A stretch of DNA of 64,000 nucleotides from Albidovulum denitrificans (GTDB taxonomy: Bacteria; Pseudomonadota; Alphaproteobacteria; Rhodobacterales; Rhodobacteraceae). Shown here piece by piece: positions 21,989 through 40,464 of this stretch (positions are counted from its first letter, which is position 1; the number at the start of each line of letters is the position of its first letter). Made by a program: the position numbers and the translations under genes. Below the pieces are notes generated by a model. It saw only the letters and a program-made list of their open reading frames with translations, was not told the origin of the DNA and ran no database searches. The stretch is taken from NCBI RefSeq assembly GCF_002973535.1, contig NZ_PVEP01000001.1:186001-250000 (forward strand). Reading direction: 5' to 3'.

Positions 21989-22006
21989 GAGGAGCGCTAC
22001 GGAGCC

Positions 22007-23009: not shown

Positions 23010-24251
23010 CTACGCCCCGCCGGGATGGATGACCCATCTGCGGGGCGGCGCCAGCGGCCCCTTCGACGCGGCCCCGCTGACCTCAAGCGCGTAGGCGTCG
23101 GCGTGGTAGTCATAGGCATGGCTCCAGTCGCTTTGCCAGAGGCCAAGGCTGATCGTATAGCTGCCCGGCGACAGGTCGAGCCTGTCAAGCGTCAATTCGA
23201 TCACCTCGCCGCCCGTCAGATCGGGCAGCGCGACCCCGTCGACCTGGCTGTTGGTGTCAAAGCAAAGCGCGCCGCCCGCGTCGGTGATCGTGATGCTGAA
23301 GAAGGCGGACGGCACCGGGCGGGACACATCCACCCGCGCCTGAACGGTCACGCCCTGTCCCTGCGCGACGCTGCCCGTCACCGCACCTTCCGGCCCCAAA
23401 AGCCGCACCCGGTCCAGCCGCAGCTCGCCCGAGCCGATGCGGTTTTCCCCTGCGATCAGCGCGCGGCCCTGAAAGGTCATCTCCTGCGGCCCCTCGGGCG
23501 TCAGGCGGCGGCTGGTTTCCATCAGCGTCGCCTTGTAGGCGCCCACCACCTCTACCGCGCTGCCCATGGCCCGCACCTCGCCATGGTCAAGCCAGATCGC
23601 CCGGTTGCAGACCTGCTCCACCTGACCCATGTCATGCGAGATGAAGACGATGGCGCAACCCTCGGCCCGGAACCGGTCGATCCTTTCGATACATTTGCGT
23701 TGGAACGCCGCGTCGCCGACCGCCAGAACCTCGTCAATCAAAAGGATACGCGGGCGGACATGGACGGCGGTCGCGAAACCAAGCCGCAGGCGCATCCCGG
23801 CGCTGTAGGTCCGCACCGGGTCGTCGATAAAGGGGGCAAGCTCGGCAAAGGCCACGATTTCATCGAACCTGTCGCGCACTTCCGACCGCAACAGCCCGGC
23901 CAGCACGCCGCTGATGAGGATATTCTCCCGCCCCGACAGGTCGAGATGCATCCCGGTATTGAGGTCGAGAAGCCCGTTCACCGGCGCCCCCGCCACGACG
24001 CGCCCTTCATCGGGCCGCATCACGCCCCCCAGAAGCCTGAGAAGGGTGGATTTCCCCGACCCGTTATGGCCGACGATACCCAGCATTTCCCCTGGCGCGA
24101 CCTCAAAGCTGACGTCGCGCAGCGCCCAGAACTGCTCCCCCGCCCGCGCGCCGCGCCAGCCGCCCTCGACAAAGCCGCGCAGGGTCGTCGGATGGCGCCC
24201 GCGATGCAGGAACGCCTTTCCCAGCCCCTCGGCTCGCAGGATCGGCGCCAT
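23010..24251 (-). CDS. Polysaccharide ABC exporter ATPase with Wzt-type C-terminal domain
   Basis: A 413-residue protein. Residues 1-240 are an ABC ATPase of the O-antigen/teichoic-acid export class: Walker A GHNGSGKST, an YSAGMRLRLGFA signature and Walker B ILLIDEVLAVGD. Residues about 265-405 form a beta-sandwich like the Wzt glycan-binding domain, which recognises the capped end of the exported chain. The start overlaps the stop of the permease gene by one base (TGATG). Together they would move a completed lipid-linked glycan across the inner membrane. Confidence 0.88.
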   Translation of the reverse strand: MAPILRAEGLGKAFLHRGRHPTTLRGFVEGGWRGARAGEQFWALRDVSFEVAPGEMLGIVGHNGSGKSTLLRLLGGVMRPDEGRVVAGAPVNGLLDLNTGMHLDLSGRENILISGVLAGLLRSEVRDRFDEIVAFAELAPFIDDPVRTYSAGMRLRLGFATAVHVRPRILLIDEVLAVGDAAFQRKCIERIDRFRAEGCAIVFISHDMGQVEQVCNRAIWLDHGEVRAMGSAVEVVGAYKATLMETSRRLTPEGPQEMTFQGRALIAGENRIGSGELRLDRVRLLGPEGAVTGSVAQGQGVTVQARVDVSRPVPSAFFSITITDAGGALCFDTNSQVDGVALPDLTGGEVIELTLDRLDLSPGSYTISLGLWQSDWSHAYDYHADAYALEVSGAASKGPLAPPRRWVIHPGGA

Positions 24252-25030
24252 CAGATCTCCTCCAGGAAACGGTCGCTTGATCGGCGGAAAAACCGCAGCG
24301 TCAGCGCAAGAAGGATCAGCGCGAAGACAAAGACCGCCGCCACCGCGCCCCAGTCGGGCCAGCGCCCCTCGATCAGCACCGCGCGATAGGCGGTCACCAG
24401 CGCCACCAGCGGGTTCAGCGACAGCACCATCCGCCCGCGTTCGGAGACCATCGAGAGGTCGTAGAAGATCGGCGTCAGGAAATAGCCCAGTTGCAGCAGG
24501 ATCGGCACGATGTAACGCATGTCGCGGAAGCTGACATTCAGCGCGGCGACGAAATAGCCAAGGCCCAGCGTCAGGACCGCCTGCACCAGCATCAGCACCG
24601 GCAGCGCCAGATAGGGCAGGGACGGCCCCGCCGCCTGCACCCAGACGAGGATCAGGAGGATCGGGAAGGTCATCAGGAAGGTCACGCCGTTCGACAGGAC
24701 CGAGGCCACCGGCAGCACGGCAACCGGAAAGCGCGGCAGGTTCACCAGCGTCGCATTATAGGGAATGCAGGTGACCGCCTCGCTCAGGCTGGTCTGGAAC
24801 CAGGTCCAGACGACGATGCCCACAAGGACATGGGAGGCGTAATTGGCGATGCCCAGGGGCATGATGACGGCGAAGAGGAAGTAGAAGATCAAAAGGAACA
24901 GAAGCGGGCTTGCCACCGCCCAGACGACGCCCATCGCCGTGCTTTTGTAGCGCGACTTCTGGTCCCGCGCGATCAGGACCGTCAGCACATCGAGGGCATG
25001 AAGGATCTGACGCCTGTCGAAAGGCCGCAT
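24251..25030 (-). CDS. ABC-2 type polysaccharide export permease (Wzm/KpsM type)
   Basis: About 259 residues with six predicted helices, starting MRPFDRRQILHALDVL. The cytoplasmic ARDQKSRYKSTAMG segment before helix 1 is characteristic of TagG/KpsM/Wzm permeases. The ATG at 25030 is chosen because upstream alternatives (ATG 25066, TTG 25093) add an unlikely Pro/Ala leader; no start has a strong ribosome site. It pairs with the following ATPase. Confidence 0.88.
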   Translation of the reverse strand: MRPFDRRQILHALDVLTVLIARDQKSRYKSTAMGVVWAVASPLLFLLIFYFLFAVIMPLGIANYASHVLVGIVVWTWFQTSLSEAVTCIPYNATLVNLPRFPVAVLPVASVLSNGVTFLMTFPILLILVWVQAAGPSLPYLALPVLMLVQAVLTLGLGYFVAALNVSFRDMRYIVPILLQLGYFLTPIFYDLSMVSERGRMVLSLNPLVALVTAYRAVLIEGRWPDWGAVAAVFVFALILLALTLRFFRRSSDRFLEEI

Positions 25031-25112
25031 CGTGAAAACTCGTGGAAACCTGCCATCTGGCGGCATCTTAGGCGCTTTGGCCGGGGCAGACAAACGGCAA
25101 GCGGCGGGGCGT

Positions 25113-26330
25113 TCAGCGCAGCGGCAGGAAATCGACCCGCGCCGTGCCGGTCAGCGGATGCGCGGTATAGTCGAGATCAAGCCCGTCGAGCCAGGCGGCA
25201 GGGAAGGCGGCCATCAGCCGCGCGCGGGTCAGGTCGCGCCCGGCGGCCTTCAGCACCTCGGCCAGCACAGCGCCGGAAAGGCGGGCATGGGCGGCCAGCG
25301 GGCTTTCACCGCCAAGCTCGATCAGGGCCGGAACGTCGTTGATCGCGATGACCTCGCGGTCGGCGGGCAGATGCCCCGCCTGCCGGATCGCCTCCCACCC
25401 GATCCAGAGCCGCGCGCCGGGGGCGGTTTTCAGCGCGCCGTCAAGCTCGGTGCCGTCCAGCACCACGATTTCCCGTGCGGGGTCCTTGGCGGAGGGCGCG
25501 GGCGGGCCGTTGGCGGAAAGCGCGGCGCGCAGGCCTTCGGCCATATCCTCGGGCCAGATCGCGACGGGTCCGCGGGCATCAGAGGCCAGCCGCGCGGCCA
25601 GTGCCGCCCGCGTCCCCGCCGCGCTGGGAAGAAACCCGCGCACCGTGCCGGGGTCCTCATCGCCGGGCAACGGACCCAGCGGGAAAAGCGCCGGGATACC
25701 TTCGGCCGCGAAATCCGGCACCGCCCCGGCGGGCAAGGCCAGCACCGCGAAGACCTGCCGCCCGGTTGCCGCGTTGCCGGGATCGACCGGCACGAAGGCG
25801 ACCGTCCGGCCATGGACCATCGCCCCGCCGAGACGCGCCTCAAGCGCCGCTTGCAGGGTCTGGCGATAGCCGCCGCCGGGCGGGGCCGCGACGCCGAAGG
25901 TCACGCGCCCCGGCGTCACGCCGCGCCGCTGCTCGGCGGGCAGGGCGGCGAGATAGGCGAAAAGGGCGGTCGCCTCGGGCGCGGTCATCGGATAGCGCGG
26001 CATCAGCTGGCTTAACGCACGACCCCCGGCGGACTGGCCCGCCGTCACGGCACGATGGAAGAGCGCCGCATCATAGGCGGGCCGGTCGGGCGTGGCGCGG
26101 GACAGGCTCGGCCCGTCGATGGGCGGCGCGCGCCCCTCATCCGCACCCTGAGCGTCGCCGCCATGGCAGGACTTGCAGGGCAGCCGCGCCAGCCTGCGGG
26201 CAAGGGCCGGGTCGTCGGTCTTCGCCGCCCGGCCCAGGAAGAGCGCCCGCCCGGCGTCGATCTCTTGCGCCCCGGCGGGGGCGGCCAGAGCCACGCAAAG
26301 GGCCAGTGCCGCGCTAACTGTCCATCGCAT
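25113..26330 (-). CDS. Cytochrome c fused to a periplasmic-binding-protein-like domain
   Basis: A 405-residue secreted protein (leader MRWTVSAALALCVALAAPAGAQ). Residues 25-135 form a class-I cytochrome c with heme site Cys52-Lys-Ser-Cys55-His56 and Met110 as likely axial ligand (QLMPRYPMT). Residues about 140-405 resemble branched-chain amino-acid-type binding proteins: GPVAIW..., a Rossmann-like alternation and a closing AHPLTGTARVDFLPL. The fusion is unusual. It is the last gene of the copper-oxidase operon and overlaps the Sco gene by 17 bases, which suggests that it accepts electrons from the oxidase or presents a ligand to it. The C-terminal domain may no longer bind a small ligand. Confidence 0.8.
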   Translation of the reverse strand: MRWTVSAALALCVALAAPAGAQEIDAGRALFLGRAAKTDDPALARRLARLPCKSCHGGDAQGADEGRAPPIDGPSLSRATPDRPAYDAALFHRAVTAGQSAGGRALSQLMPRYPMTAPEATALFAYLAALPAEQRRGVTPGRVTFGVAAPPGGGYRQTLQAALEARLGGAMVHGRTVAFVPVDPGNAATGRQVFAVLALPAGAVPDFAAEGIPALFPLGPLPGDEDPGTVRGFLPSAAGTRAALAARLASDARGPVAIWPEDMAEGLRAALSANGPPAPSAKDPAREIVVLDGTELDGALKTAPGARLWIGWEAIRQAGHLPADREVIAINDVPALIELGGESPLAAHARLSGAVLAEVLKAAGRDLTRARLMAAFPAAWLDGLDLDYTAHPLTGTARVDFLPLR

Positions 26331-26898
26331 CTATGATCTTCTTCAGATCGCCCGCCTCGGGCATGGAGAGGGACCGGTAGAACCGCCCGTCCTCCACCCG
26401 CCCGACAAGGAACATCGGGTCATGCAGCACGATATTGGCATAGTCGGCGTCGAAGGCCGCCAGCAGGCGCTTTACCTCGCCGGGGTTCCCCGTCAGCCAG
26501 CGCCAGCGCGCGCTGGCCCCGAACTCCTCGGCTGCCGCGCGCATCCTGTCGGGCGTGTCGCGCGCCGGGTCGATGGTGATGGAGAGAAGCCGCACCGCGC
26601 GCTCCGGGCCAAGCATGGCGTCAAGATCGGCCATCACCACATTGCCCAGCGGGCAGATCGTGTCGCAGGTCGTGTAGTTGAAGTTGATGACGACGACATG
26701 GCCCTGCGTCAACGCGCCCTTGAAACGCTGCGGCTGTGCGGCCGCGTCGATCAGTTCCACGTCGGGCAGGGCGAGGCGCTCTGTCTGGAAGGTGCCGGTG
26801 GAGAGCCCGGCGATCTTCGGCCCCCGGATTTCGGCGATGGCATAAGCGGTCAGGGCAAGGGCAAGCGCCCCGGCAAGGACAAGGGCCGGGCGTTTCAT
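26314..26898 (-). CDS. SCO1/SenC/PrrC-family copper chaperone
   Basis: A 194-residue thioredoxin-fold protein with one N-terminal helix that anchors or exports it. Copper ligands typical of Sco are present: Cys78 and Cys82 in TTCDTICPLG, and His159 in VLHDPMF. Sco proteins deliver or reduce copper for Cu sites, classically CuA of cytochrome oxidase. Here the gene overlaps the propeller gene (ATGA) and the cytochrome gene, and the nearest copper enzyme is the giant oxidase. Metallation of that oxidase is the likely role. Confidence 0.88.
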   Translation of the reverse strand: MKRPALVLAGALALALTAYAIAEIRGPKIAGLSTGTFQTERLALPDVELIDAAAQPQRFKGALTQGHVVVINFNYTTCDTICPLGNVVMADLDAMLGPERAVRLLSITIDPARDTPDRMRAAAEEFGASARWRWLTGNPGEVKRLLAAFDADYANIVLHDPMFLVGRVEDGRFYRSLSMPEAGDLKKIIDAMDS

Positions 26899-28724
26899 CG
26901 GCCCGCCCCCTCATCCTCGACCGCCGTGATGATGCTGGCAGAGCGCAGGCTGTAGGGCGGCGGCAGGTCAAGCGGCTGGATCGCGAAAGGCCCGGCATGG
27001 GGCAGGCGCAGTGTTGCCCGCAAGGTGCCGTCCGCCCCCTTGCTGGCCGTGACGCGGGTGGACCAGCCGCTGATCATGCTCGGCACCAGCAGGGCGAGGC
27101 GGTCCAGCGCCACCGGCGCGCCATCGGCATCCAGAATGCGCAGCCGCAGGTCATAATCGCGCCCCACAACGGCGGCGCTGCCCATATCCGGGATCAGGCG
27201 CACCGGGCGCAGTTCCGCCCGCTCCACCGCGCCGCGCACATGGAAGGGGACGCAAGTGGAGATGTCGCCCAGATCGCTGGTCAGCACCAGTTCCCAATCC
27301 CCGGCGCCAAAGGCCCAGGCGGCCTCGAACACGCCCGGCGCGACCTCGTCAAAGCTCCGGTCGAGGATATGGACCCTGGCCGGAATGCCGCCGCGCAGGC
27401 GGACGGAGTCCATCGGCGGCATCTCGACCGAGCTTGCAAGCTCCTCGATCAGCCAGCCGGTCTGGTTTTCCGGCGTCACCGCCATGACCTGCGGCGCGGG
27501 CAGAAGCGGCACGATCAGCCGCGTGTCGCCGTCGGGCGCGGGGCCTTGAAAGCCAAGGTTGACCTGCCGCATCACGGCGGTACGCCCCAGCGCGACCGTG
27601 GCAAGGTCAAGCGCGCCGACATAGCCGCCGTCATGGCTGAGGAGATAGGCCGCGTTGTCGGTGAACGTCATCTCGGACACCGTGGCCTTGTCGAGCGACA
27701 GTTGCTGCACGACCCGGCCCAGCGCCAGATCGACCAGCGCCACCAGCGCGTCGCCCGGCGACCAGAGAACCGCGATCCGGCCCGCAGGATCGGTGGCGAC
27801 GCGGGCGAACGGCGTGCCAAGCGCCACCGGCACGGCCCGGTCCGGCGCGTCGGCATAGCGGATCTGTGCCACCCCGGCGCCGCCTTGCAGGGCGATCAGC
27901 CCGACCTGTCCCACCGGCGCGAGGGAGAGGAGAGGGGCGGGAAAGCGCGTCTCCATGATCGCCCGCCCGTCGGAGGCGTCGATCATCCGCGCCCTGCCGC
28001 TGTCGGTGAAGGCCAGCAGCAGCGGGCTTTCGGGATCGTCGGGCCGGATCAGGGTCACGGCGCCGGGCAGGGCGGTCCGCTCAAGGACCTCGCCCGCGGG
28101 TGACAGTGCGATCAGCGCGCCGTCTTGCGTCCCGGCCCAGATGCGCCCGTTCGGCGCGACCGCAATCGCGCGCAGCGGCCCCAGCCCGCGCGCGATCACC
28201 GTCCTCCCCGGTCCGGCGACATCGGCGGCCTCGATCCGCCCGTCGGCATGGGCCGCAAGCATCCGCATCCCGCGCCGGTCGGCGGCGATGGCGGCGGGCA
28301 TGTCGTCCAGCACATGGGCGGCGATCAGGTTGGAGCTGTAAAGGTTCAGCTTCGGGTCGATCACGCTGAGCGAGGCATCGCGGTTCAGCACGCTGACCAG
28401 CACCCCGTTCATGTCGACCGACCCCAGAGGTGTGCGGCGGGTGGAGCGGAAGTTCTGCGCCGCCCGCGCGCAGCCGGGATTGTCGGCGGCGACGGGTCGC
28501 GCCCAGGCGCGCAACAAAAGCCCGCGCGGCGCGGCCCCGGTCGCCGGTTCGCGCAAGCTGATCCTGAGGCGCAGCTTGTCCCCGGCATCGGGGTCGGTGG
28601 CGCGCCCCGTCAGCGGGTCAAGCAGCGCCAGCTCCGCCGTCAGGCTGGCCTGCGCCCGCACCGGCCCCGCCGCCAGCATCGCCAGCGCCGCGACGGGTGC
28701 CAGGATCGCGCGCGCCGCCCTCAC
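26895..28724 (-). CDS. Secreted propeller-like protein of the copper-oxidase operon
   Basis: A 609-residue protein with a Sec leader (MRAARAILAPVAALAMLAAGP). Residues about 130-420 contain repeated short strands of the type GRIWAGTQDGALIALS and AAYLLSHDGGYVGALDL, as in YVTN/quinoprotein-like beta-propellers. Residues about 440-600 look like one or two beta-sandwich domains. Only two cysteines (84 and about 505 by eye) are obvious and there is no heme motif. It starts with GTG overlapping the oxidase stop (GTGA). It is probably a structural or binding partner of the giant oxidase. Function not recognised. Confidence 0.72.
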   Translation of the reverse strand: MRAARAILAPVAALAMLAAGPVRAQASLTAELALLDPLTGRATDPDAGDKLRLRISLREPATGAAPRGLLLRAWARPVAADNPGCARAAQNFRSTRRTPLGSVDMNGVLVSVLNRDASLSVIDPKLNLYSSNLIAAHVLDDMPAAIAADRRGMRMLAAHADGRIEAADVAGPGRTVIARGLGPLRAIAVAPNGRIWAGTQDGALIALSPAGEVLERTALPGAVTLIRPDDPESPLLLAFTDSGRARMIDASDGRAIMETRFPAPLLSLAPVGQVGLIALQGGAGVAQIRYADAPDRAVPVALGTPFARVATDPAGRIAVLWSPGDALVALVDLALGRVVQQLSLDKATVSEMTFTDNAAYLLSHDGGYVGALDLATVALGRTAVMRQVNLGFQGPAPDGDTRLIVPLLPAPQVMAVTPENQTGWLIEELASSVEMPPMDSVRLRGGIPARVHILDRSFDEVAPGVFEAAWAFGAGDWELVLTSDLGDISTCVPFHVRGAVERAELRPVRLIPDMGSAAVVGRDYDLRLRILDADGAPVALDRLALLVPSMISGWSTRVTASKGADGTLRATLRLPHAGPFAIQPLDLPPPYSLRSASIITAVEDEGAGR

Positions 28725-31700
28725 GGCAGGCCCCGGACGCAGGAACTGACCTTTGCGTCGGCAAGGGCAGCCCCGTCCAGCGCCTCGGGTGCGACGACGT
28801 CGATCAGGCCCCAGACCCCGCCGGCGCGGATTTGCGTCGGGCCGTCGAAGAAGAGGTAACAGCCCGCCTCAAGCGGCTTGCTCATCGCCGCCGTCACCGC
28901 CTTGCCCGGCGCCAGCAGCGCGCCGCGCGGGAAGCCGAAACCGGGGAAGAGATCGTCGTAATCCAGCCCGACCGTCACGAAGGACCGCTGCCGCGCCCGC
29001 CCGCCGGGATGGACGACATGGATCACCAGTTCCTCCCCCGCCAGCGCGCGCAGGACCGGCATCGGCGAAGCGGGCCAAAGCGCGGATTCGCCGCCCGCCA
29101 GCCGGAAGAACGATGTGGAGGTATCGCCCGGCGTGTCCGTCGCACCGAATTCGGTGTCGTTGAAGTTGTAATGCCGCTCGATCCCGGCCCGGTTTCCCTG
29201 CCAGTTGCGCAGGCGGATGTCGAAAGGTTCGCTTTGATAGCTGACGCCCTTTTCGCCGAAATCGTAGCTGTCATCGCAGATCATGCAATCGGCGACGATC
29301 TTTTCGGGCGCGGGGGTTTTCCAGACATTCGCGCTGTTCGCGTCGCGGTGGTTCAGGCCATCCTGCCAGAAGAGCGTGATCTGGCGCAGCTTGTGGTCTC
29401 GCGCCGGGGCGCCGAAGGGGGCCTTGACCGTCATCAGCGTCTGGGCGATCGGAACGGATTTGCGGGCGCTGTCCGACGTCGCGCGCGGGACCAGCGCGAA
29501 GCTGGCACAGTTCTGCGCCAGCCCCTGCCAGGCACGGGGACCCTGGCTGCGCAACTGTCCCCGCGCAGTGCCGAGATAGTCTTCGATCCGGCTGGCCCGC
29601 GCGATGGGCTGGCCGTCGGGGCCGAGGACAAGCGCATCGCAGCTCGCAGGCCCAAGGGGAAGGCGCTGCACCCGCTCCTCGGACAGTTCCGCATGTTGCG
29701 GGGCCACCGTCACGGCCCCGATCAGCCCGTGGGTCGGATGCCCGATCACGTCGCCGAAGGACTTGATCGGCAGCGCGCCGAAGGCATAGGGCTTGTAGGA
29801 GGCATCGAGGCCGAGGGCCGCTGCCTTCGCCGTTGCCTCAAGGTCGGTCCGGTCCAACTGGGCGCGTTGCGGTTCGACGGCCTTGAGGACCTGCGCGGTC
29901 TGGGCCGGGGTCAGCGCGCGTGTCTTCAGCACCTCCGTCAGGCTGCGGTCAAGCGCGATCAGGTCATCCGCACCGGGAAGGGCGGGGTCGCCGGGCCGAA
30001 GCTGGTCCAGCACCGGGGCAAGGGCGCTGCGCGCCTTCTCTACCTCGCCGGGTTGCGCCAGTCCCGTCCGTAGCGTGCCGGCCTTGTCGACCTCTGCTTG
30101 CAGGTCTTTGCCCAGTTGCAGCCGCTCGGCCTGCACTCTCGCGGCGAAATCGCCAAGCGTCTCGGTCGTGCCGCCCGCCGTCGCGAAGGCGGGCAGGTGC
30201 AGTAGCGTCGGGGGGACGTTGCCGGACAGAAGCAGGCTTCCCGCCGCCGCGGCGGTTGCCTTGCGCTGGCCGAAGGCGAGGCCCGCGTAGAACTCGATCT
30301 GTTCGATCTGCGCGGGGGCGGCGCCGTCGCGCAGGGACAGCATCGTCGCGCCCTCCGGCACCCCGTCAAGCGCCGCAACCGGGTTCTGGCCGAAGGGCCG
30401 CCCGTAGCTTTCCTGCTTCGTGACCACCGGAAGCGGCAGCGTCACGGCGAGGCGGGCCGAGGGGCGGATGTCGCGCGTGCCTTCGATCATCGTCACCGAC
30501 ACCGGAACCCCGTGTCCGGGCTTGGTGTCGCCGTCCCAGGCGGGGTCGGTGTTGATCGAGGTGATGCCGGGCATCATCGCGTCGCCCGGATGGTCGGTCA
30601 GGCCCGGGCGCTGACCGTCGCCATGGGAGGTCAGCGCATTGATGATGGTCAGCCGCACACAATCCCCGGCCTTGACGTTCACGACCAGCGGTTCCGGTTG
30701 GGCATAGGTGTCGCGGATCGCGTCGATGACGCGCGACCGGGGGATGTTTTTCCACAGCTCCGCGCCGGGCGCCGCATAAAGATCGGTTTCGCTGACCTTG
30801 GCCGGATCATCGCTGATCACGCGGCGCGGGTCGAGAAGGGCGAAGAACAGCCCGTCGATGTCGCGCAAACCGTCGGAATAGGCGGTGCCGCCGGGGAACA
30901 CGACCCCGGTTTCAACCGCCGCGATGGCGGCATGAACGCGCGGCGCGTCGGGCGCGCATCTGGCGACAAGGGTGCCATCCGGTTCGGCGGCGGGGTCGGC
31001 CCACGGCGCTGCGAAGGCAAAGGGGCTGGCCGAAAGCCTGCGGTCCATGGCCCGGCTTGCATTTCGGGCAGCCGGGGCGGCGGTGTAGGAGGCCAGCGTA
31101 TGTATCCGCGTGGGCTGCTGGATGGTGTCGCGAGGTTCCTCATCGGCACCGAGCGCAAGCGGAACGTCATAGGCAAGGGGCGCATCGGCAGTCCGGTTGC
31201 CCAGAAGCGTTTCGATATCCGGCTCTGTCAGGTCCAGATAGCGCTGAAGCAGGTCACCCGGTAATGTGCAGGCGGGTGCGTCCGCCGAACAGGCCGCTTC
31301 GATCTCGGCAAGCAGCGCCTCGGCGCGTGTGACAAGCGTGTCCCGCTTTTTCAGCCGCTCGGCCGCGTCGCGTATCCGCACCAGCCCCCAGGCCCCGTTC
31401 CACAGCGCGTCCTGACTGCCGAAATGATAGGGCGTGTCGCTGAGACCATATGCATTCAAGGCGGCGATCCGCGCGCGAAGCGTCTCGATGGCCGTCTCAG
31501 ATCCGACGGGGGGCAGCGGTTCCCGCCGCGCCGTCGACGACATCCTGAACGCAGCCACCCCCGAAATATTCGTGTCGTAGAAGAAGGCCGACCTGAACTC
31601 GAAATGCTCCGAGATGCCGATCTCCTGCGCGGCGATGCGGCCGTCGGTGTTGATGCAATCGGCGATCTGGCGTTCCATGTCGCGCCAGAAGAGATAGGCA

Positions 31701-34700
31701 TCGCTGTTGACCGGGAAGGCGGTGTGATCCTTCTTCGCCCATGTGCCGTATTCGTCGGGCCGCCCGGCGCGCGCCATGCGCAGGCCGGAAAAGCTGCCGG
31801 GGCTGTTGTAACACGCGCCCAGCAGCGTATCGCGCGGGGTGACATTGTCATGCAGCCGCATCATCGACGGGAAGGCCTGATCTATATTGCGCGGCCAGCT
31901 ATAGCCCTCGACGTTGAAGGTATGCTGCACCTCCTGCGCGCCCTGGATCAGGCGGAACTGGATCGTGTCGCCGTCGAAGGCGTTCAGGATCGGCACGACG
32001 GGATCTTTGTGGAAGCGAGAGAGGAGGACATTGGCCATGTCGCCCTCCGCGCCATCCTTCTGCCTGCTGATCTCGCAACGGTCGGTCACGCCGCTTTCAA
32101 GCGCGCCAACCCAGTAGTCGAGCGGGTGAAGGTCGCAGCCGGTGGAGGCGGAACTGGCCGTGCCGATGCGGATCGGGAACGGCTCCCCCCGGTAATTCAC
32201 CAGATAGGGGTCGTGATGATCGACCGAGATGCTTTCGGGCCGTCGCGGGGGGGAGACGGGGCTGGCCAGAAGCGCGTTCTGTTCGTCCGCACCTTCATAC
32301 CCCGCCGCCTGCGCCCGGTAGGTCTTCAGGTGGTGGTCGAGATGGTCGGCGGGCGACTTGCCGTCGACGGTGATCCCGGCACTGATGAGGCCTTTCTCAA
32401 AGCCCGCCTGATGCCCGGCGCTGTCACCCGGCCGCCCCTCGGCCAGCCAGGCCGGGGGGACATTCCCCGGAGCCTTGGCGAACCGGCCCTGCTTGTCCTG
32501 CGTCAGGTCGCTGCCACAGAATTTCTCCATGTCCTTGGGCGAGCCGGCATATCTCGCCTCGCACAGAAGCATCGCCATGCCCTTGCGGCTGGCCTCGATC
32601 ACGGCCTTGTCGGTGTTTTTCATCTGCGCGTCGAACTCGCCCGGCGTGATGCCCGCGCGCGGGTCGTAAAGCGTGGCGAAATCCGCGATGGAAACCGCGA
32701 ATTCGCGCAGCGCGGCGGCCTTTTCCGGTGCGGGCAGATCGGCGGTGATGGGGAAGAGGTCGACAATCACCTTGCGCGCGCCGACATCCTTTTTCGTGGC
32801 CAGCACAAGGCGGCGATCGGTCCGCGCCTCGGTGCAGTCGACCTTTTCCTCGTCGCAGATCAGCGCGTTTTGCGGCTCGATCACAAGCGCGGTGTAGAAC
32901 CCGTGCTGCTGGATCGAGGACGGGCCGAAATGGTCGTGGCTGAAAACGGTGCGCAGCGTGCGGTCGGCCTGACCTTCGCCCGGCTTGTCCAGCCGCAGAT
33001 TGGACAGGACCGGGTCGGCGAACCAGCGCTGGGTGGTGGTCTGGAAGAGGTCGCGGTTCGTCCCGTCAAGCAGCGGCAGCTTCCATATCTTGTGTGCGTA
33101 TTTTTCCGCGACGCGCCAGTGTCCCGCGTCATCCTGTTCGCAGAGGTCCGCATATTCGCGAATAAGAACCTTGCCGGGTTTCCGGGCCTTGGTGACCAGC
33201 GCGGCGCTGTCGGTGTTCTTCGCCGCACAGATTCGCGCCGCGATCTCATCGGGGGCGAAGGTGCCGTCCTCATAGTTGAAGCCGTTGCCCGACCCGTCCG
33301 ATGAGGTCACATCGAACTTCACCAGATGGATATGCTGGCCGATGGTGTCGGTCGGGGTGCGGACCTGAAAATCGTCCAGCTCAAGGTCCTTGGGCAATTC
33401 GTTGGTGTGGCGGAACTCGATGCATTCGCCCGACAGGGCGCGGAAGAAGAAGGGCTCCTCCGAGGCCGAGACGCGGGGGGAGATCTTGCCATCCCCGGTC
33501 TTGAATGTATCCGACCGTTCGGTCAGGACGTTGATGCGGGCCTGCGGGTCGTGCCATCCGGCGCGGTTGGTGACCATGTCCACCTGCACCGCCGAGGCCT
33601 CATACCGGCGATAGCCGACGACGGCCGGGTCGGTGGCGAATGTGGTCGTGTCAACCGTGACGCCCGTCGCGGGCGCGACGAAGGGGTCGGCTTCCTCGAT
33701 CAGCGCGTCGCGGGGGATTTTCTGGCCATGGCCGTCCTCGTCCGCGACATAAAGATCGGGCTTGCGATGGGCGGCTGAGCGGCGGAACTGCACCCAGTTC
33801 GACACCTCGGCATCGGTCGCCGCAACGCTCAGCGCCTTGTCGGTGAAGACCTTGCGGTTCTCCACCCCGTCATGGCGCCATTCATACCCCCCGTTCTCGT
33901 CACGGATGAGGGCGGCGAGGCTGCCGGGCGCGCCGCAGGGATCGGCGAAGGGGGCGCCGGGTTTGGGCGGGGCGCCGTTGACGGCGAAGGTCAGGCCGCC
34001 AAGGCTGGCATAGCCGCCTTCATGCGGGTCGTAATGGGATGGCGCACCATCCGCCGACCGGATGGCCAGATCGGTGCCGTCGGCAACGCCATTGTGGTGA
34101 AACGCCATCGCGGCGCGCTCCAGAAAGTTGCCGTCATAGGGCAGGGGCGCGATCTCGGCCGCCTCAAGCTCCATCGTCATGTCGCCCAGCGCCAGCGCGG
34201 CGGCGAGGACCTGGGATTGCAGCGCCTCGCGTTGGCGCAGGTCGGTGTCGTTCAGCGCTGCCTCTAGCGTGGCCGATGCGGTGTCCTTGGCAAGGCGCGT
34301 GGCGGCATCTTCCGGCAGGTCGAAGGGCAGCGTCCGCTTGCTGCCATCGCCCATCACATGACGCGGCAGCCCGCCGTCGAGATAGTCGGCGGTGACCTTC
34401 GTTTTGCCATCGGTCAGCGCCCGCGCGATGTCCATCGGCGCCTGCGGCGGCCGGTGGCCGGGCTTGCCGGCGATATAGAAGGGATAGCCGGGGAAGGGTT
34501 TGAAATCTGCGGTCGGGGTTTCGTCGGCAGCGATGGCGGTATTTGCGGCCGGGGTCGCGGCGGCGGCCAGCTTGCCATCCGCGCCGAGCGTCTTTTTGGC
34601 AGCGTAGCCTGGCAGCACCGGCCAGGCATGGCCCGGCACCGGCACGATGGCCGGCACCGGCGTGCCAAGGTTGCGGCGCTTTAGACCCGCACCCGGTTCG

Positions 34701-36643
34701 ATCCAGTCACCGGTCTCGGGGTCGACGGAACCGGGGCGCTTCTTGCCGCGCGTCGCCGCGTTCATCTCCGCCAGCGACAGCACGGGTTCCCATTGCCCGT
34801 CGGGCAGCTTGCGGGTGCCGTCTTCCAGCACGTCATGGACACGCCACAGCTCCCACATCCCTTGGGCGAAATGCGGGTAGAGGTGGCAGTGAAAGATCGA
34901 ATCCCCCACCGTGCGGTTGCGGTTGCCGGAACCGAGTGTCTCGAACCAGCCGGGCGCGCCGCCGTTGCCCTTGTGATAGACCTCCATCCCGCCCTGATAG
35001 ATGTCGTAGCTGAACCCCTGCTGCGGCGCGACCGTCTGACTGTCGAGATAGGCGCCGCGCCCGCCGTCATTGCCCGCGAACCACTGATGGGCATGCAGGT
35101 GGAAGACATGGGTTTCCTTCGGTCCGGCATGGAAATTGCGGAACACGATCGGGTCGTTCAGGTAGGAATGGTGGACGTTCGAGGGATCGTCGCTGAACTG
35201 CTCAAGCAACGCCGGGTCGCCATTGGCCCAGGAGGTGAGGAAGAATTCCTCATAAAGACACTCGGCGCAATTGGCCGCCGGGCCGATGCCCTTGCGGTTG
35301 GCCAGAAGCATGTCGCCCATGCCGCTGGCCCCGTAATTGATCGCAAAGCCGTCGCGGACCCCGGCAAGCTGGCCCTCGCCAAAGGCGCCAAGCTCTTCGA
35401 AGGCGCGGGGGTAGAAGGTCTTCAACTCATCATGCAGGAAGACCGAGAATTCGCGAAAGCTCTTTTCAGGCGCGTCGGGCAGGTAGACCACGGCGTTGAG
35501 GTCGGAATGGACGATCTCATGCGTGTCGCCACCGACCTCGCGCAGCATGTTCAGGACCGGCACGCCGTTTTTCGTCGTCTCATAAGGCGCGATGCCGGAA
35601 AGCGTTTCGGCCACGCGCGCATGATCGCTGAGGTCGTCGCCGTCTTTCGGCGTGAATACCGCGTCGAAGGCCGCGCGGCTGACCTGGCTGCGATACCAGC
35701 GGCTGTCCTTGCGTTCGGCCATGACCGCGCCGAAAAGCCCGTGCGTGATCGACCCGCCATCCCCTTCGCCCCCGGCGGGCGCGCCGGTTGAGGCCATGAA
35801 ATACGGCCCCTCGCGTTCGACCATGTAAAAGCAATCGACCGAGGCGCCGGGCGGGATCGCGCCCAGCCCCTTGCAGGCATCGGGCGCCTCGGCCATCTGA
35901 TTGTTGACAATGGCAAAGGCGGTCAGGCCCTGGATCGCCATGTTCGCGCCGCGCGATGTCGGCCAGTCCGGCCCGTCATCCTTGCCGCCGGGGATCGGGG
36001 CCGGGCGATAGCCCTCGGGTCCGCAGGCGACCTCATGGTGATCGCTCTGCGTGTTGTCGCCCGAGGAGACCCAGTTGCGGATCTGATGGAAGAAGCTGCC
36101 GTAGCCGCCATCCGATTGCGGCGCATCGCAGAAATCGCGGGAGAAATCGGGCGCGGCTTCCTCGCCTGGTTCGGGCTTTTGCAAGGGCCGCAGCAGGTTT
36201 GTCAGCCGCACATGCAGCACATCGCCCGCGTTCGCCCGCAGCGTCAGCGGCCGGGGCCGCTTGCAATCCTTCAGCCGCACCTCGCCGGGGGTAAGGCCCT
36301 TGCCAAAGCCCTCGGTCCCGTCAAGATCGTCGCAGCCATCGGCATCCAGCGCGCCCACTTTCACGTCCACGCCGACCACGTCGCGCCGCAGCGCATAGAT
36401 CATGCCGAAGGGGTTGAAGCTGCCGAAGCGGTTGTAGACCAGCATCTGGTCCATCGCGACGATATCGGCGCAGACCGTGCGCCCGAAGCGTTTCTGTTCA
36501 TCCGGCAGGAGATCGTTCAGTACCTCATGCGTCGGGCCACAACTCATGGGCGTATCGCTGACGGCGGCTGGCCCCGCCTGCGCCATGGAGTTTCCGGCGA
36601 TGATGACGAAAGACAACAGGAAAACGGCCCGGAAAAACAGCAT
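28721..36643 (-). CDS. Giant secreted multicopper-oxidase-like protein (2640 residues)
   Basis: The largest gene in the window. It starts with a Sec leader (MLFFRAVFLLSFVIIAGNSMAQA), and GGAGGG lies 7 bases before the ATG. Copper motifs are clear: His512-x2-His515-x-His517-x-His519-Gln-Trp, then His585-Cys586-His587-x3-His591-x4-Met596, the exact T1/T3 pattern of multicopper oxidases. Further on come His1104-Ile-His1106 (GQHIHLVKF), His1236-Asp-His1238 with His1247, His1476-His1477 and His1574. A C-terminal cupredoxin-like segment has His2542, His2545 and Cys2595. The HCH motif precedes the HxH pairs, the reverse of laccases. Size and motif order recall MnxG/McoA-type manganese oxidases, but homology cannot be proved here. 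It is the first gene of a four-gene overlapping operon with a Sco chaperone and a cytochrome c. The substrate is unknown. Confidence 0.82.
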   Translation of the reverse strand: MLFFRAVFLLSFVIIAGNSMAQAGPAAVSDTPMSCGPTHEVLNDLLPDEQKRFGRTVCADIVAMDQMLVYNRFGSFNPFGMIYALRRDVVGVDVKVGALDADGCDDLDGTEGFGKGLTPGEVRLKDCKRPRPLTLRANAGDVLHVRLTNLLRPLQKPEPGEEAAPDFSRDFCDAPQSDGGYGSFFHQIRNWVSSGDNTQSDHHEVACGPEGYRPAPIPGGKDDGPDWPTSRGANMAIQGLTAFAIVNNQMAEAPDACKGLGAIPPGASVDCFYMVEREGPYFMASTGAPAGGEGDGGSITHGLFGAVMAERKDSRWYRSQVSRAAFDAVFTPKDGDDLSDHARVAETLSGIAPYETTKNGVPVLNMLREVGGDTHEIVHSDLNAVVYLPDAPEKSFREFSVFLHDELKTFYPRAFEELGAFGEGQLAGVRDGFAINYGASGMGDMLLANRKGIGPAANCAECLYEEFFLTSWANGDPALLEQFSDDPSNVHHSYLNDPIVFRNFHAGPKETHVFHLHAHQWFAGNDGGRGAYLDSQTVAPQQGFSYDIYQGGMEVYHKGNGGAPGWFETLGSGNRNRTVGDSIFHCHLYPHFAQGMWELWRVHDVLEDGTRKLPDGQWEPVLSLAEMNAATRGKKRPGSVDPETGDWIEPGAGLKRRNLGTPVPAIVPVPGHAWPVLPGYAAKKTLGADGKLAAAATPAANTAIAADETPTADFKPFPGYPFYIAGKPGHRPPQAPMDIARALTDGKTKVTADYLDGGLPRHVMGDGSKRTLPFDLPEDAATRLAKDTASATLEAALNDTDLRQREALQSQVLAAALALGDMTMELEAAEIAPLPYDGNFLERAAMAFHHNGVADGTDLAIRSADGAPSHYDPHEGGYASLGGLTFAVNGAPPKPGAPFADPCGAPGSLAALIRDENGGYEWRHDGVENRKVFTDKALSVAATDAEVSNWVQFRRSAAHRKPDLYVADEDGHGQKIPRDALIEEADPFVAPATGVTVDTTTFATDPAVVGYRRYEASAVQVDMVTNRAGWHDPQARINVLTERSDTFKTGDGKISPRVSASEEPFFFRALSGECIEFRHTNELPKDLELDDFQVRTPTDTIGQHIHLVKFDVTSSDGSGNGFNYEDGTFAPDEIAARICAAKNTDSAALVTKARKPGKVLIREYADLCEQDDAGHWRVAEKYAHKIWKLPLLDGTNRDLFQTTTQRWFADPVLSNLRLDKPGEGQADRTLRTVFSHDHFGPSSIQQHGFYTALVIEPQNALICDEEKVDCTEARTDRRLVLATKKDVGARKVIVDLFPITADLPAPEKAAALREFAVSIADFATLYDPRAGITPGEFDAQMKNTDKAVIEASRKGMAMLLCEARYAGSPKDMEKFCGSDLTQDKQGRFAKAPGNVPPAWLAEGRPGDSAGHQAGFEKGLISAGITVDGKSPADHLDHHLKTYRAQAAGYEGADEQNALLASPVSPPRRPESISVDHHDPYLVNYRGEPFPIRIGTASSASTGCDLHPLDYWVGALESGVTDRCEISRQKDGAEGDMANVLLSRFHKDPVVPILNAFDGDTIQFRLIQGAQEVQHTFNVEGYSWPRNIDQAFPSMMRLHDNVTPRDTLLGACYNSPGSFSGLRMARAGRPDEYGTWAKKDHTAFPVNSDAYLFWRDMERQIADCINTDGRIAAQEIGISEHFEFRSAFFYDTNISGVAAFRMSSTARREPLPPVGSETAIETLRARIAALNAYGLSDTPYHFGSQDALWNGAWGLVRIRDAAERLKKRDTLVTRAEALLAEIEAACSADAPACTLPGDLLQRYLDLTEPDIETLLGNRTADAPLAYDVPLALGADEEPRDTIQQPTRIHTLASYTAAPAARNASRAMDRRLSASPFAFAAPWADPAAEPDGTLVARCAPDAPRVHAAIAAVETGVVFPGGTAYSDGLRDIDGLFFALLDPRRVISDDPAKVSETDLYAAPGAELWKNIPRSRVIDAIRDTYAQPEPLVVNVKAGDCVRLTIINALTSHGDGQRPGLTDHPGDAMMPGITSINTDPAWDGDTKPGHGVPVSVTMIEGTRDIRPSARLAVTLPLPVVTKQESYGRPFGQNPVAALDGVPEGATMLSLRDGAAPAQIEQIEFYAGLAFGQRKATAAAAGSLLLSGNVPPTLLHLPAFATAGGTTETLGDFAARVQAERLQLGKDLQAEVDKAGTLRTGLAQPGEVEKARSALAPVLDQLRPGDPALPGADDLIALDRSLTEVLKTRALTPAQTAQVLKAVEPQRAQLDRTDLEATAKAAALGLDASYKPYAFGALPIKSFGDVIGHPTHGLIGAVTVAPQHAELSEERVQRLPLGPASCDALVLGPDGQPIARASRIEDYLGTARGQLRSQGPRAWQGLAQNCASFALVPRATSDSARKSVPIAQTLMTVKAPFGAPARDHKLRQITLFWQDGLNHRDANSANVWKTPAPEKIVADCMICDDSYDFGEKGVSYQSEPFDIRLRNWQGNRAGIERHYNFNDTEFGATDTPGDTSTSFFRLAGGESALWPASPMPVLRALAGEELVIHVVHPGGRARQRSFVTVGLDYDDLFPGFGFPRGALLAPGKAVTAAMSKPLEAGCYLFFDGPTQIRAGGVWGLIDVVAPEALDGAALADAKVSSCVRGLP

Positions 36644-36709
36644 GACGCCCTCCGATAAAACAACCTGCGCTTGAAAACCGTCCGCGCTTCAGAATGCCCT
36701 GAGGGTAAC

Positions 36710-36740
36710 AAAAAACGCCCGCCCTGTCTTGCGGGCGGGG
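36710..36740 (-). terminator. Rho-independent terminator downstream of chpT
   Basis: On the minus strand a CGCCCGC/GCGGGCG stem (about 36715-36737) is followed by a TTTTTT run (36715-36710). It lies about 105 bases after the chpT stop and upstream of the oxidase operon, separating the two units. Confidence 0.8.
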
Positions 36741-36843
36741 TCAGGGCCTAGCGGTTTGAATTTAGGCGGATTTCGCAAAGTCAAGCGTAAAACGCCTGAT
36801 TCGTTTCCATTCCGGCACCAACCAAGGGGGCGTTGGCCCGCGC

Positions 36844-37431
36844 CTAAAAGCGTATCGTGACGCTGCCGTCCGTCTGCCGCAGGTCGATGCCGCCCGGACC
36901 CGCCTCAACCGGCAAAAGCGCGAATTGCAGCTGGGCGGGGGTTATGGCGGGGTCTGGCGCGGGGGCGGTGAGGTTGGACCAAAGCGCTGCATCCACCGCC
37001 AGCCGCGCGCCGTCGGCCCGCGCCTCCCACACCGCGCCGGCGGCCGTCACCGTGACCGTGCCGCCGAAGGGCAGGGCGGTTTCCAGGCATTGCAGCGCAA
37101 GAAAGGCCAGCTTCGCCCGCTTGCGCGACACCGGCCCGGCGATCCGCCAGTCGATCGCCACGCGCCCGCCATCCGCCATGCCGGTCAGGATCGACCGGAT
37201 CTCCGCCTCTGCCACCTCGCCCGCCGCCGCGCCATAGGCGATACGGAAGAACCGGATGCGGGCGTTTGCGTTGGCCACGCTGTCCGCGATCAGCGCCAGT
37301 TCCGGCCCGCCGCCCGCGCCCGACATCGACAAAAGCTCTACCCCGTTGCCGATCGCGCCCAGCGGGCTGATAAGGTCATGGCAGATGCGAGAGCCGATCA
37401 GGGCGGCGAAATCGGGTAGTCTATCGGACAT
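36844..37431 (-). CDS. chpT: Histidine phosphotransferase ChpT
   Basis: A 195-residue protein with the DHp-like helix LIGSRICHDLISPLGAIGNG; His18 is the phosphate-carrying residue. The rest is a degenerate ATPase-like domain without ATP-binding boxes, as in ChpT. In alphaproteobacteria ChpT relays phosphate from CckA to CtrA and CpdR; in Rhodobacteraceae this controls motility and gene-transfer agents. CckA and CtrA are not in the window. It is divergent from a DUF3553 gene with 26 bases between the starts. Confidence 0.92.
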   Translation of the reverse strand: MSDRLPDFAALIGSRICHDLISPLGAIGNGVELLSMSGAGGGPELALIADSVANANARIRFFRIAYGAAAGEVAEAEIRSILTGMADGGRVAIDWRIAGPVSRKRAKLAFLALQCLETALPFGGTVTVTAAGAVWEARADGARLAVDAALWSNLTAPAPDPAITPAQLQFALLPVEAGPGGIDLRQTDGSVTIRF

Positions 37432-37457
37432 GGACGATCCTTCGGACGGAGAGCAAG

Positions 37458-37637
37458 ATGATCGAGATCCTCGAACCCGGCATGCTGGTGCGCCATCCCG
37501 AGCATGAGGACTGGGGCCTCGGGCAGGTACAGTCGCGCGTCGGTCGTAAAGTAACCGTTAACTTTGAACATGCGGGCAAGGTGGTCATCGACGGAACCCA
37601 TGTCTCCCTTCGGCTGGTTTTCGGGCCGGAGGGATGA
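37458..37637 (+). CDS. DUF3553 small protein
   Basis: A 59-residue protein starting MIEILEPGMLVRHPEHEDWG, with GGAGAGCAAG before the ATG. The pattern PGMxVRHPxxxDWGLGQVQS followed by KVTVNFEHAGKVVI is that of DUF3553, a short beta-barrel-like domain similar to the CarD/UvrD C-terminal tail fold. Its gene commonly sits divergent from chpT in this order. Function unknown; nucleic-acid or polymerase binding is a guess from the fold. Confidence 0.85.
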   Translation: MIEILEPGMLVRHPEHEDWGLGQVQSRVGRKVTVNFEHAGKVVIDGTHVSLRLVFGPEG

Positions 37638-37769
37638 CCGCCGGTTGCGCCGGGCGACCCTAGCACAGCCCAAGGGTGCGTCAATGCACGGGTCCGGCCA
37701 GTTGCATTGCATCCTTACCGCCCGTAAAACCCCTAACTGATCGCCATAGCGGCAGAAACCGGACCAGCC

Positions 37770-38555
37770 GTGACAGCCGAAACCTCGCCCTTCCAGACCC
37801 GCCTTGCCGAGACCGAGCAGGATCTTCTGGCGGCCCAGCGGCTGCGCTACCGCGTCTTTGTCGAGGAACTGGGCGGCGACGGGCCGCTTGTCGATCACGA
37901 CCGGCGGCTGGAACGCGACGCCTTTGACGACGTCAACGAACACCTGATCCTTGTGGACACCCGGCGCGACATGGCCGGGCTTGACTATGTCATCGGCGCC
38001 TACCGGCTGCTGCGCTCTGACCAGGCGGCACGGTTCGGGCGTTTCTACTGCGATTCGGAATACGACCTGACGGCGCTGCGCCGGTCCGGGCGGCGGCTCC
38101 TGGAGCTTGGCCGCTCCTGCGTCGAGGCGGATCATCGTGGCGGGTCGGGCATGTTCCTTTTGTGGAACGCGCTGGCCGATTACGTCCTTCTGCACGGGGT
38201 CGAAGTGCTGTTCGGCGTGGCGAGTTTCCACGGCACCGACATCGCGCCCTTGAAGATGCCGCTTTCCTGGCTGCATCACCGCCACCTCGCGCCCGAGGCG
38301 CTGCGCGTGCGGGCGCTGCCACAGGCGTTTCAGCGCATGGACCTTATCGCCGAGGCGGAGCTTGACCAGCGCGCCGCGATGCTGGCGATGCCCGCGCTTA
38401 TCAAGGCCTATCTGCGCCTTGGCGGTTTCGTGGGTGAAGGCGCCTTTATCGACAGCGATTTCAACACCACCGATGTCTGCCTGCTGATGGACACGACCGC
38501 GATGAGCAGCCGCCACAAGGGCTTTTACACCCGCAAGCACGGGGCGCGGGTGTGA
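37770..38555 (+). CDS. olsB: L-ornithine N-alpha-acyltransferase (lyso-ornithine lipid synthesis)
   Basis: A 261-residue GNAT-like enzyme that transfers a 3-hydroxyacyl group from ACP to ornithine. The start RLAETEQDLLAAQRLRYRVF and the ELGRSCVEADHRGG motif are typical of OlsB; FNTTDVCLLMD closes the family core. The start is GTG at 37770 without a strong ribosome site. It is followed by olsA with overlapping stop and start (GTGA), so the two steps of ornithine-lipid synthesis are coupled. Confidence 0.92.
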   Translation: MTAETSPFQTRLAETEQDLLAAQRLRYRVFVEELGGDGPLVDHDRRLERDAFDDVNEHLILVDTRRDMAGLDYVIGAYRLLRSDQAARFGRFYCDSEYDLTALRRSGRRLLELGRSCVEADHRGGSGMFLLWNALADYVLLHGVEVLFGVASFHGTDIAPLKMPLSWLHHRHLAPEALRVRALPQAFQRMDLIAEAELDQRAAMLAMPALIKAYLRLGGFVGEGAFIDSDFNTTDVCLLMDTTAMSSRHKGFYTRKHGARV

Positions 38556-39403
38556 CGCGATGGCATAAGACCGACGCGCCCGAGGCGGTGCGGATCGGGG
38601 TGACGGGCTGGCTGATGGTGGCGCTGCGCCTGCCGGTGATCGGGGTGATCTGCTATGGCGGGCTGCTGCTTCTGCTGGCGCTGCGGCTGGTGGAATACCC
38701 GCTTTATCGCCGTGCGCGGCCCTTCACGCCACACATCACCACTGCCGTTTGCCGCGCCTGCCTTTCGGTTCTGGGCCTGCGCCATACCGTCTCGGGCCAT
38801 CCGATGCGGGGGCAGGGTGCGGTGGTGGCGAACCACAGTTCCTGGCTCGACATCTTCGTGCTGAACGCCTGCCAGACGGTTTACTTCGTCTCCAAGGCCG
38901 AGGTCGCGCGCTGGCCCGGCATCGGCTGGCTGGCGCGGGCGACCGGGACGGTCTTCATCGCGCGCGATCCGAAACAGGCGAAGGTGCAACGGGTGGAGTT
39001 CGAGGATCGGCTTCGCGCGGGCCACAGGCTGCTTTTCTTCCCGGAGGGGACGTCGACCGATGGGCTTGGTGTTCTGCCTTTCAAATCAACGCTTTTCGCG
39101 GCGTTCTTCGTAGATAACCTTAGGAATGGGATGCGGATTCAGCCGGTCTCTGTCCTCTACCGCGCGCCGCGCGGCCGGTCACGCCGGTTCTATGGCTGGT
39201 GGGGCGATATGGCCTTCGCGCCGCATTTCCTGACCATCCTCGCGCAAGGTCGGCAAGGCGCGGTCGAGGTGGTGTTCCACGATCCCGTCGAAGTGGCGGC
39301 GTTCACCGACCGCAAGGCGCTGGCGCTTTATTGCGAGGAAACCGTGCGCGCGGAACTGCGCGACGGGCAGGGCGATGATTACTGGGCGCTGGAAGACCGC
39401 TAA
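38552..39403 (+). CDS. olsA: Lyso-ornithine lipid O-acyltransferase (PlsC family)
   Basis: A 283-residue membrane-associated acyltransferase. His95-x4-Asp100 in NHSSWLD is the catalytic motif and FPEGTSTDG the acyl-acceptor motif of PlsC-like enzymes. One or two helices lie near residues 15-50. Its position directly after olsB points to acylation of lyso-ornithine lipid, although some OlsA proteins also acylate lysophosphatidate. Its TAA stop overlaps the TAG stop of the convergent thiE-like gene within CTAA. Confidence 0.9.
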   Translation: MTRWHKTDAPEAVRIGVTGWLMVALRLPVIGVICYGGLLLLLALRLVEYPLYRRARPFTPHITTAVCRACLSVLGLRHTVSGHPMRGQGAVVANHSSWLDIFVLNACQTVYFVSKAEVARWPGIGWLARATGTVFIARDPKQAKVQRVEFEDRLRAGHRLLFFPEGTSTDGLGVLPFKSTLFAAFFVDNLRNGMRIQPVSVLYRAPRGRSRRFYGWWGDMAFAPHFLTILAQGRQGAVEVVFHDPVEVAAFTDRKALALYCEETVRAELRDGQGDDYWALEDR

Positions 39404-40020: not shown

Positions 40021-40070
40021 CGGCGACTCCTTCAGGGTTGCGGTGCCTTACCCGAGATTTCGGCGCTTGG

Positions 40071-40397
40071 CTACTTCGGCGGCAGGCCCCGCACATGGGC
40101 CAGCGCCAGCGCCATCAACCGGCCCCGCGCCGCGTCGTCGGCCATCGCCTCGGGCGGCAAACCGACCATGCCGCCCATGACCCGCGCGCCCATGCGGATC
40201 TCCTCCGCCCCCGGCAGAGAAAGCGCCGCCGCGCGGTCCGCCTTGGCCACCCGAAACATCCCGCCGCCGGGATAGACACCCGCGACCATGTTTCCCGCGA
40301 TCAGAAAGCAAAGCCCGCCGAACATCTTCCGTTCGCGAACCGGCTCCCCCGACAGATCGTCGCGCAGGATCTGCGCCAGCCCCTCGTCATAGGCCAT
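40071..40397 (-). CDS. TfoX N-terminal domain protein
   Basis: A 108-residue protein matching the TfoX-N fold: RKMFGGLCFLIAGNMVAGV near residues 24-42 is the family hallmark. The ATG at 40397 follows AAGGGGGG and gives the usual family length; 11 extra upstream codons have no support. Stand-alone TfoX-N proteins are common and their role is unknown; only the full-length gammaproteobacterial protein is known to control competence. Confidence 0.88.
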   Translation of the reverse strand: MAYDEGLAQILRDDLSGEPVRERKMFGGLCFLIAGNMVAGVYPGGGMFRVAKADRAAALSLPGAEEIRMGARVMGGMVGLPPEAMADDAARGRLMALALAHVRGLPPK

Positions 40398-40464
40398 CGG
40401 CCCCCCCTTGGTTGCGATAGCGGTGCGCAAAGCGTATCAGGCGCCCGAGTTTCAGGGAACGCCG

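Follow-up and report, generated by a model that had tools for sequence, protein, structure and literature searches.

A MnxG-family multicopper oxidase operon in Albidovulum denitrificans, probably an mnxG operon of alphaproteobacterial type

The mnxG operon of Pseudomonas putida GB-1 comprises mnxG, a YVTN beta-propeller gene, two successive SCO1/SenC genes, a gene for an ABC substrate-binding protein with a cytochrome c domain, and SurA, as listed in Table 4 of PMC11409713; according to the same paper, the ccm genes of cytochrome c maturation had earlier been found to matter for Mn oxidation in P. putida MnB1. Oxidases of the MofA/OmpB type, in turn, are adjoined by MofC-like fusions of a cytochrome c with a periplasmic-binding protein and by SCO1/SenC genes (PMC5566968), and electron transfer to MofC has already been proposed (Brouwers et al. 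2000, cited in PMC5566968). Both mnxG and mof operons are described in two other strains (PMC8218464).

The MnxG homologues in print reach 1944 aa in P. putida GB-1, 2493 aa in Methylobacterium populi and 2681 aa in Roseovarius sp. TM1035 (PMC3600357, Appendix 2). Bacterial six-domain oxidases are described as holding their mononuclear copper site in domain 2, with the trinuclear site shared by domains 2 and 3 (PMC3600357). SCO1/SenC genes also lie beside the gene for the iodide oxidase IoxA of Roseovarius and Iodidimonas, a 62-kDa multicopper oxidase described together with three Sco homologues (PMC9415286).

Here, we describe a four-gene operon from the window, by which we mean the whole stretch of 64,000 nucleotides of A. 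denitrificans DNA that was analysed. On the strength of homology, residue conservation and the make-up of the operon, we consider it likely to be an mnxG operon of alphaproteobacterial type, encoding an exported Mn(II) oxidase that would reduce O2 at its own trinuclear site.

Locus layout and gene order among relatives

The genes of the operon overlap in succession, the oxidase and propeller genes at 28721-28724 (GTGA), the propeller and Sco genes at 26895-26898 (ATGA), and the Sco and cytochrome genes at 26314-26330 (17 bases). The ORF list bears out the initial annotation, which had placed four ORFs on the minus strand at the coordinates of Table 1 with overlaps of 4, 4 and 17 bases, and had assigned export or anchor signals to all four products. 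Inspection of the translations by eye agrees with the latter point, each of the four having a hydrophobic N-terminus.

Table 1. Features of the operon and its flanks, in window coordinates.
Feature	Coordinates	Strand	Basis
MnxG-family multicopper oxidase, 2640 aa	28721..36643	-	ORF list; NCBIfam MnxG and 9bxa homology
Exported propeller-like protein, 609 aa, GTG start	26895..28724	-	Weak profile matches and position
Sco1/SenC copper chaperone, 194 aa	26314..26898	-	Pfam SCO1-SenC, E 8e-20
Fusion of mono-haem cytochrome c and type I periplasmic-binding-protein fold, 405 aa	25113..26330	-	Pfam Cytochrom_C, E 2e-4; modelled fold
Terminator-like hairpin and T-run, lying between the HPTransfase gene upstream and the oxidase gene	36718..36739	-	Consensus match only
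ABC-2 membrane protein with a Wzt-type ATPase, immediately 3' of the cytochrome gene	23010-25093	-	
Glycosyltransferase and epimerase genes near the ABC-2/Wzt pair	20918-22915	+	

Upstream of the oxidase gene lies a gene for a histidine phosphotransferase domain. The hairpin between the two, read from 36739 to 36718 on the minus strand, is suggestive only as a terminator, since it is a match to a consensus and the whole region holds 6 terminator-like sites where 8.1 are expected from shuffled sequence; a scan of the region for sigma-70-like promoters gave none. At the other end, the ORF of the ABC-2 membrane protein begins 20 bases 3' of the cytochrome gene and is followed by that of an ABC ATPase with a Wzt C-terminal domain. 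Together with the glycosyltransferase and epimerase genes, this pair looks like a polysaccharide locus of the export type, and we kept its ABC genes out of the operon because none of the six relative loci tested gave a match to the membrane gene.

In a family-level search of 295 genomes, the genome of origin included, a relative of the oxidase was found in seven, again counting the genome of origin; the same-genus genome G010 had none in this search. The partner genes follow the oxidase in the same order in all six of the other genomes. A wider search of contigs yielded 562 candidate stretches that encode relatives, of which the best 80 were taken and gave 79 named loci, so that the counts below describe closer relatives. 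Five of the family-level relatives (G083, G114, G217, G288 and G292) appear to recur there as L036, L037, L038, L045 and L041, respectively. We treated 64 of the 79 loci as informative, each with 4500 bases or more following the oxidase, and set aside the 15 with fewer.

Among these 64 informative loci from the best 80 of 562, the order oxidase, propeller, Sco, cytochrome is kept in 53, comprising 51 found by script and two, L048 and L109, added by hand, in which the propeller ORF had been called too far upstream and ends in order. Two further loci of the 64 carry the oxidase and propeller only, and nine have the oxidase with none of the three partners found in the available flanks, namely four from Nitrosomonas, three from Nitrospira, and one each from Meiothermus and Methylocaldum. 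A search of the flanks of these nine at E up to 10 found no Sco or propeller relative, and returned a single sub-threshold cytochrome match, in L088 (E 0.017). Given the E-values of the SCO1-SenC, Cytochrom_C and MnxG matches and the order kept in 53 of the 64 informative named loci, we do not regard the four-gene set as a product of chance. The initial annotation's grouping of the four genes thus stands up to the neighbourhood check, among these closer relatives as in the six at the family level.

Some individual loci merit mention. Rubrimonas cliftonensis and Roseovarius pacificus are among the culturable, non-pathogenic relatives with the operon. L076, L079, L080, L083, L088, L090 and L098 come from Nitrosomonas (N. 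europaea included) or Nitrospira and have an oxidase without a Sco or propeller relative in the available flanks. Jiella avicenniae (L071 and L075) carries identical oxidases with the same neighbour ORF coordinates on two scaffolds, either by duplication or as an assembly artefact; the two come from one genome and count twice. In G208 (L030, 6238-10218), one of the six other genomes of the family-level search, the oxidase is cut to its last 535 residues and adjoins ORFs matching IstB_IS21 and a Mu-type transposase domain, and the three partner genes are still open.

The edges of the operon were also compared with related genomes. In G010, a 19.9-kb stretch surrounding the copy of the upstream gene there matches window positions 37061-42168 in rearranged pieces, with the operon unaligned, and a stretch of G217 behaves in the same way from 37225 rightward. 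Synteny with L118 and L119, from two related genomes, breaks off close to where the operon begins on its upstream side (window 36680-37061). The limits of the G010 and G217 alignments fit an operon gained or lost as a cassette.

The oxidase: family, size and copper sites

The oxidase found no match above cut-off in Pfam and was matched by the NCBIfam MnxG model with an E-value of 7.2e-142 and 474 bits over five stretches. Since this score does not reach the equivalog cut-off of 3100 bits, we file the protein as a MnxG-family homologue and not as a MnxG equivalog. Bacillus MnxG (9bxa) was its sole match among PDB sequences at E up to 1 (phmmer, E 4e-61), and its nearest relatives are from Rhodobacterales. 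The homology to MnxG, seen with both NCBIfam and 9bxa, supports the initial annotation in taking Mn(II) as the first substrate hypothesis.

In a FastTree tree, midpoint-rooted and with long branches flagged, the window oxidase falls into a group of 72 rows, and those rows that lie nearest to the MnxG model form a separate group of six. Because the oxidase stands apart from the most MnxG-like rows, its substrate could have shifted, and the alphaproteobacterial branch might use the same architecture to oxidise Fe(II), Cu(I), phenols or iodide. We judge this unlikely, even with the distance from the equivalog model and the occurrence of the family in nitrifiers and methanotrophs in its favour. 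IoxA offers a precedent, being also a multicopper oxidase beside SCO1/SenC genes, and at 62 kDa it is far smaller than the window oxidase (PMC9415286). The partner set, moreover, is that of the mnxG operon and not that of the iox cluster as the two are described (PMC11409713, PMC9415286). We keep Mn(II) as the most likely substrate.

The size of the oxidase is not new, since members of 2493 and 2681 aa were tabulated in 2013 (PMC3600357), and on the same grounds we rejected a new class of giant proteins. The oxidase ORFs of relatives span 1556 to 2906 aa, with start codons as called. Judged from the alignment, the extra length falls mostly in poorly conserved stretches, which are filled in long and rarely in short relatives (e.g., 921-1000, 1361-1440, 1601-1640 and 2161-2280); such stretches give no support to the idea that the protein grew large by gaining catalytic domains. 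On plasmids, 30 records match the oxidase, four of them covering at least 80% of the protein, and the matches are annotated as hypothetical protein in 16 of the 30 and as multicopper oxidase domain protein in 10.

Four copper motifs, HVFHLH (512-517), HCHLYPHFAQGM (585-596), HIH (1104-1106) and HDH (1236-1238), align to 9bxa in the same order. Position 340 of 9bxa, counted in the alignment, lies opposite H591 of the oxidase, and the PDB entry bears the title "Mnx H340A". Following the canonical arrangement of such motifs, we take H512, C586, H591 and M596 to be the ligands of the type 1 copper.

Conservation was assessed in 73 closed oxidase ORFs longer than 1400 aa, a set that includes the window, L071 and L075, as well as L058 and L066, whose frames are each broken into two ORFs; the L030 remnant, being too short, stands outside both this set and the tree. 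H585, C586, H587, H591, M596, H1104, H1106, H1236 and H1238 are invariant in all 73, and H512, H515 and H517 are kept in 72, the exception being L099. All twelve copper-site residues are present in the window oxidase and kept whole in 72 of the 73 long ORFs, and the full twelve are also kept in five further relatives that belong to a different class of the phylum. The initial annotation's reading had turned on complete type 1 and trinuclear copper sites, and at the level of sequence these hold, with the twelve residues present, aligned to 9bxa and conserved. The residues for a single type 1 copper and a single trinuclear site are thus in place, the latter site predicted to be split over two neighbouring domains, and the order of the motifs fits the scheme described for six-domain oxidases (PMC3600357).

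A model of residues 55-1254 was built from an alignment of 70 sequences, the window together with 69 of the 70 prepared segments, with L075 excluded and short segments dropped. It reached a mean pLDDT of 82.4 and a pTM of 0.89, and its best PDB match was again 9bxa (E 1.2e-21, 16% identity, TM 0.35), followed by two-domain laccases and, lower, by copper nitrite reductases and ceruloplasmin. The pLDDT falls below 50 at model residues 461-481, 524-544, 1049-1072 and 1176-1200, which touch or cover all four copper motifs (458-463, 531-542, 1050-1052 and 1182-1184 in model numbering), so that the geometry of the copper sites is modelled at low confidence.

Partner proteins and proposed mechanism

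For the propeller-like protein, the matches of propeller type and one FixH-like match at the C-terminus were weak and stayed under the curated cut-offs, and PHROGs gave nothing informative. Its best matches among PDB sequences (best E 3.7e-5) were chains named Cake9 and Cake10, presumably designed propellers. By its position and these weak matches, we regard it as corresponding to the beta-propeller encoded in the mnxG operon.

The Sco protein carries a CxxxC motif (C78, C82) and H159, and these three ligands are kept in all 56 Sco homologues, a set that counts a second Sco in L036. The genome from which the window comes has five SCO1-SenC matches in all, the operon's own included, and two of the others lie close together at a different site (G000:C9:141327-142783). 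Homology, the SCO1-SenC match and the hydrophobic N-termini agree with the pairing of an exported copper oxidase with a copper chaperone that had been put forward from the sequence at the outset.

The cytochrome fusion has a CxxCH haem motif at 52-56 and M110, which are invariant in all 55 homologues, counting the window, L030 and an open-ended copy in L094. A model built from 43 sequences (the window and 42 of the 43 prepared cytochromes, with ORFs outside 300-480 aa dropped and L075 excluded) reached a pLDDT of 93.5 and consists of a cytochrome c domain followed by a second fold, whose best PDB matches are type I ABC substrate-binding proteins (best E 7e-8). Because its haem site is strongly conserved, the fusion probably does redox work, and it may serve as an electron acceptor from the oxidase, as a donor in assembly, or in Mn(III) chemistry.

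From these features we infer the substrate, the cellular location, and the roles of the propeller and the cytochrome. The oxidase would be exported, and Sco would hand it copper outside the cytoplasm. Mn(II) would then yield single electrons at the type 1 copper, from which they would pass to a trinuclear cluster formed by the remaining motif histidines of the same and the following domain, where O2 would be reduced to water, and a Mn(III/IV) oxide would form outside the cell. The propeller would be an accessory protein, most likely a scaffold or substrate-handling partner, while the fusion of cytochrome c and binding protein would act as an accessory redox partner in maturation or electron transfer.

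Two readings of the partners, both compatible with Mn(II) as the substrate, have to be weighed against this mechanism. It is possible, if doubtful, that the cytochrome fusion and the propeller only assemble or secrete the oxidase and take no part in catalysis. We know of no established role in copper loading for a cytochrome with an intact haem site, and oxidases without linked partners exist, both of which argue against such a role. Pointing the other way, the two genes adjoin Sco in the operon, the printed operons add SurA or PPIase chaperones (PMC11409713, PMC5566968), and PpiC/SurA is present in two relatives (G962 and G821).

The second reading is that electrons from Mn(II) run from the oxidase through the cytochrome fusion into the respiratory chain, which is in our estimate quite unlikely. 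The invariance of CxxCH and M110 in 55 of 55 cytochrome homologues would fit it, as would the linkage of the four genes in 53 of the 64 informative loci (best 80 of 562), and the hypothesis has already been printed for MofC (Brouwers et al. 2000, cited in PMC5566968). The residues of the trinuclear site, by contrast, are complete, so that O2 can be the direct acceptor, and at 9 of the 64 informative loci (best 80 of 562) the oxidase occurs without any partner found in the available flanks. Electron delivery from the oxidase to the fusion is possible. That the fusion is a dedicated acceptor of the oxidase, coupling Mn(II) oxidation to the respiratory chain with energy conserved, we hold to be very improbable. 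Energy gain by autotrophy likewise finds little support, as a photosystem search returned no match (one control rang) and a RuBisCO-family search returned one weak match of 55.6 bits over part of the model, which we read as a RuBisCO-like protein.

With the mechanism preferred here, in which the oxidase itself would pass electrons from Mn(II) to O2, the locus joins the candidate Mn(II)-oxidation systems as a well-defined operon, and the order kept among the informative loci (53 of 64, best 80 of 562) shows which partners accompany the oxidase. The physiological function of Mn biomineralisation is called unknown in PMC11930936, and the linked cytochrome with its invariant haem site provides a concrete gene for asking what it does.

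Comparison with described oxidase operons

The combination of genes had initially gone unrecognised, a view that has to be given up, since the layout is printed for P. putida GB-1 (PMC11409713) and MofC-like fusions are printed as well (PMC5566968); for the former reason, a new system was rejected. The layout, the cytochrome/binding-protein fusion and the idea of electron transfer are all already in print. For the Rhodobacterales version of the operon, we found no paper title in the open-licence literature.

Compared with MnxG of Bacillus sp. PL-12 (9bxa), the window oxidase has its copper motifs aligned and in the same order, with H340 at the place of H591, whereas the Bacillus chain has 1227 residues. 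Bacillus MnxG works in complex with MnxE/MnxF. Roseovarius sp. TM1035 and Methylobacterium populi are both Alphaproteobacteria. Their multicopper oxidases, of 2681 and 2493 aa, are giant MnxG homologues like that of the window (PMC3600357, Appendix 2).

The mofABC genes of Leptothrix discophora and the ompB/mofA clusters of iron oxidisers and Geobacter share with the window a large oxidase, a MofC-type fusion and, in some, SCO1/SenC (PMC5566968). As described there, the mof clusters differ in having MofB, a PPIase, and in having no propeller, and the likeness between MofA and the window oxidase is one of description (PMC5566968). The iodide oxidase (iox) cluster, with its 62-kDa IoxA and three Sco homologues, is unlike the window operon, with 2640 aa and one Sco, and was rejected for that reason (PMC9415286).

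Like the mnxG operon of P. putida GB-1, the window operon has an oxidase, a beta-propeller protein, SCO1/SenC and a binding protein with cytochrome c, in the same order (PMC11409713). GB-1 has two Sco genes, SurA and an oxidase of 1944 aa, whereas the window has one Sco, no SurA and an oxidase of 2640 aa (PMC11409713, PMC3600357); a second Sco and SurA are absent from the window operon, its genes overlapping and the next one encoding the ABC-2 membrane protein. In two genomes from another class of the phylum, G962 and G821, the order is oxidase, propeller, PpiC/SurA, Sco, Sco and cytochrome fusion, and against the MnxG model the G962 oxidase scores 2182 bits and that of G821 about 1936 bits, the latter as the sum of three stretches. 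This gene set is that of the mnxG operon in P. putida GB-1, except that SurA sits elsewhere in the order (PMC11409713).
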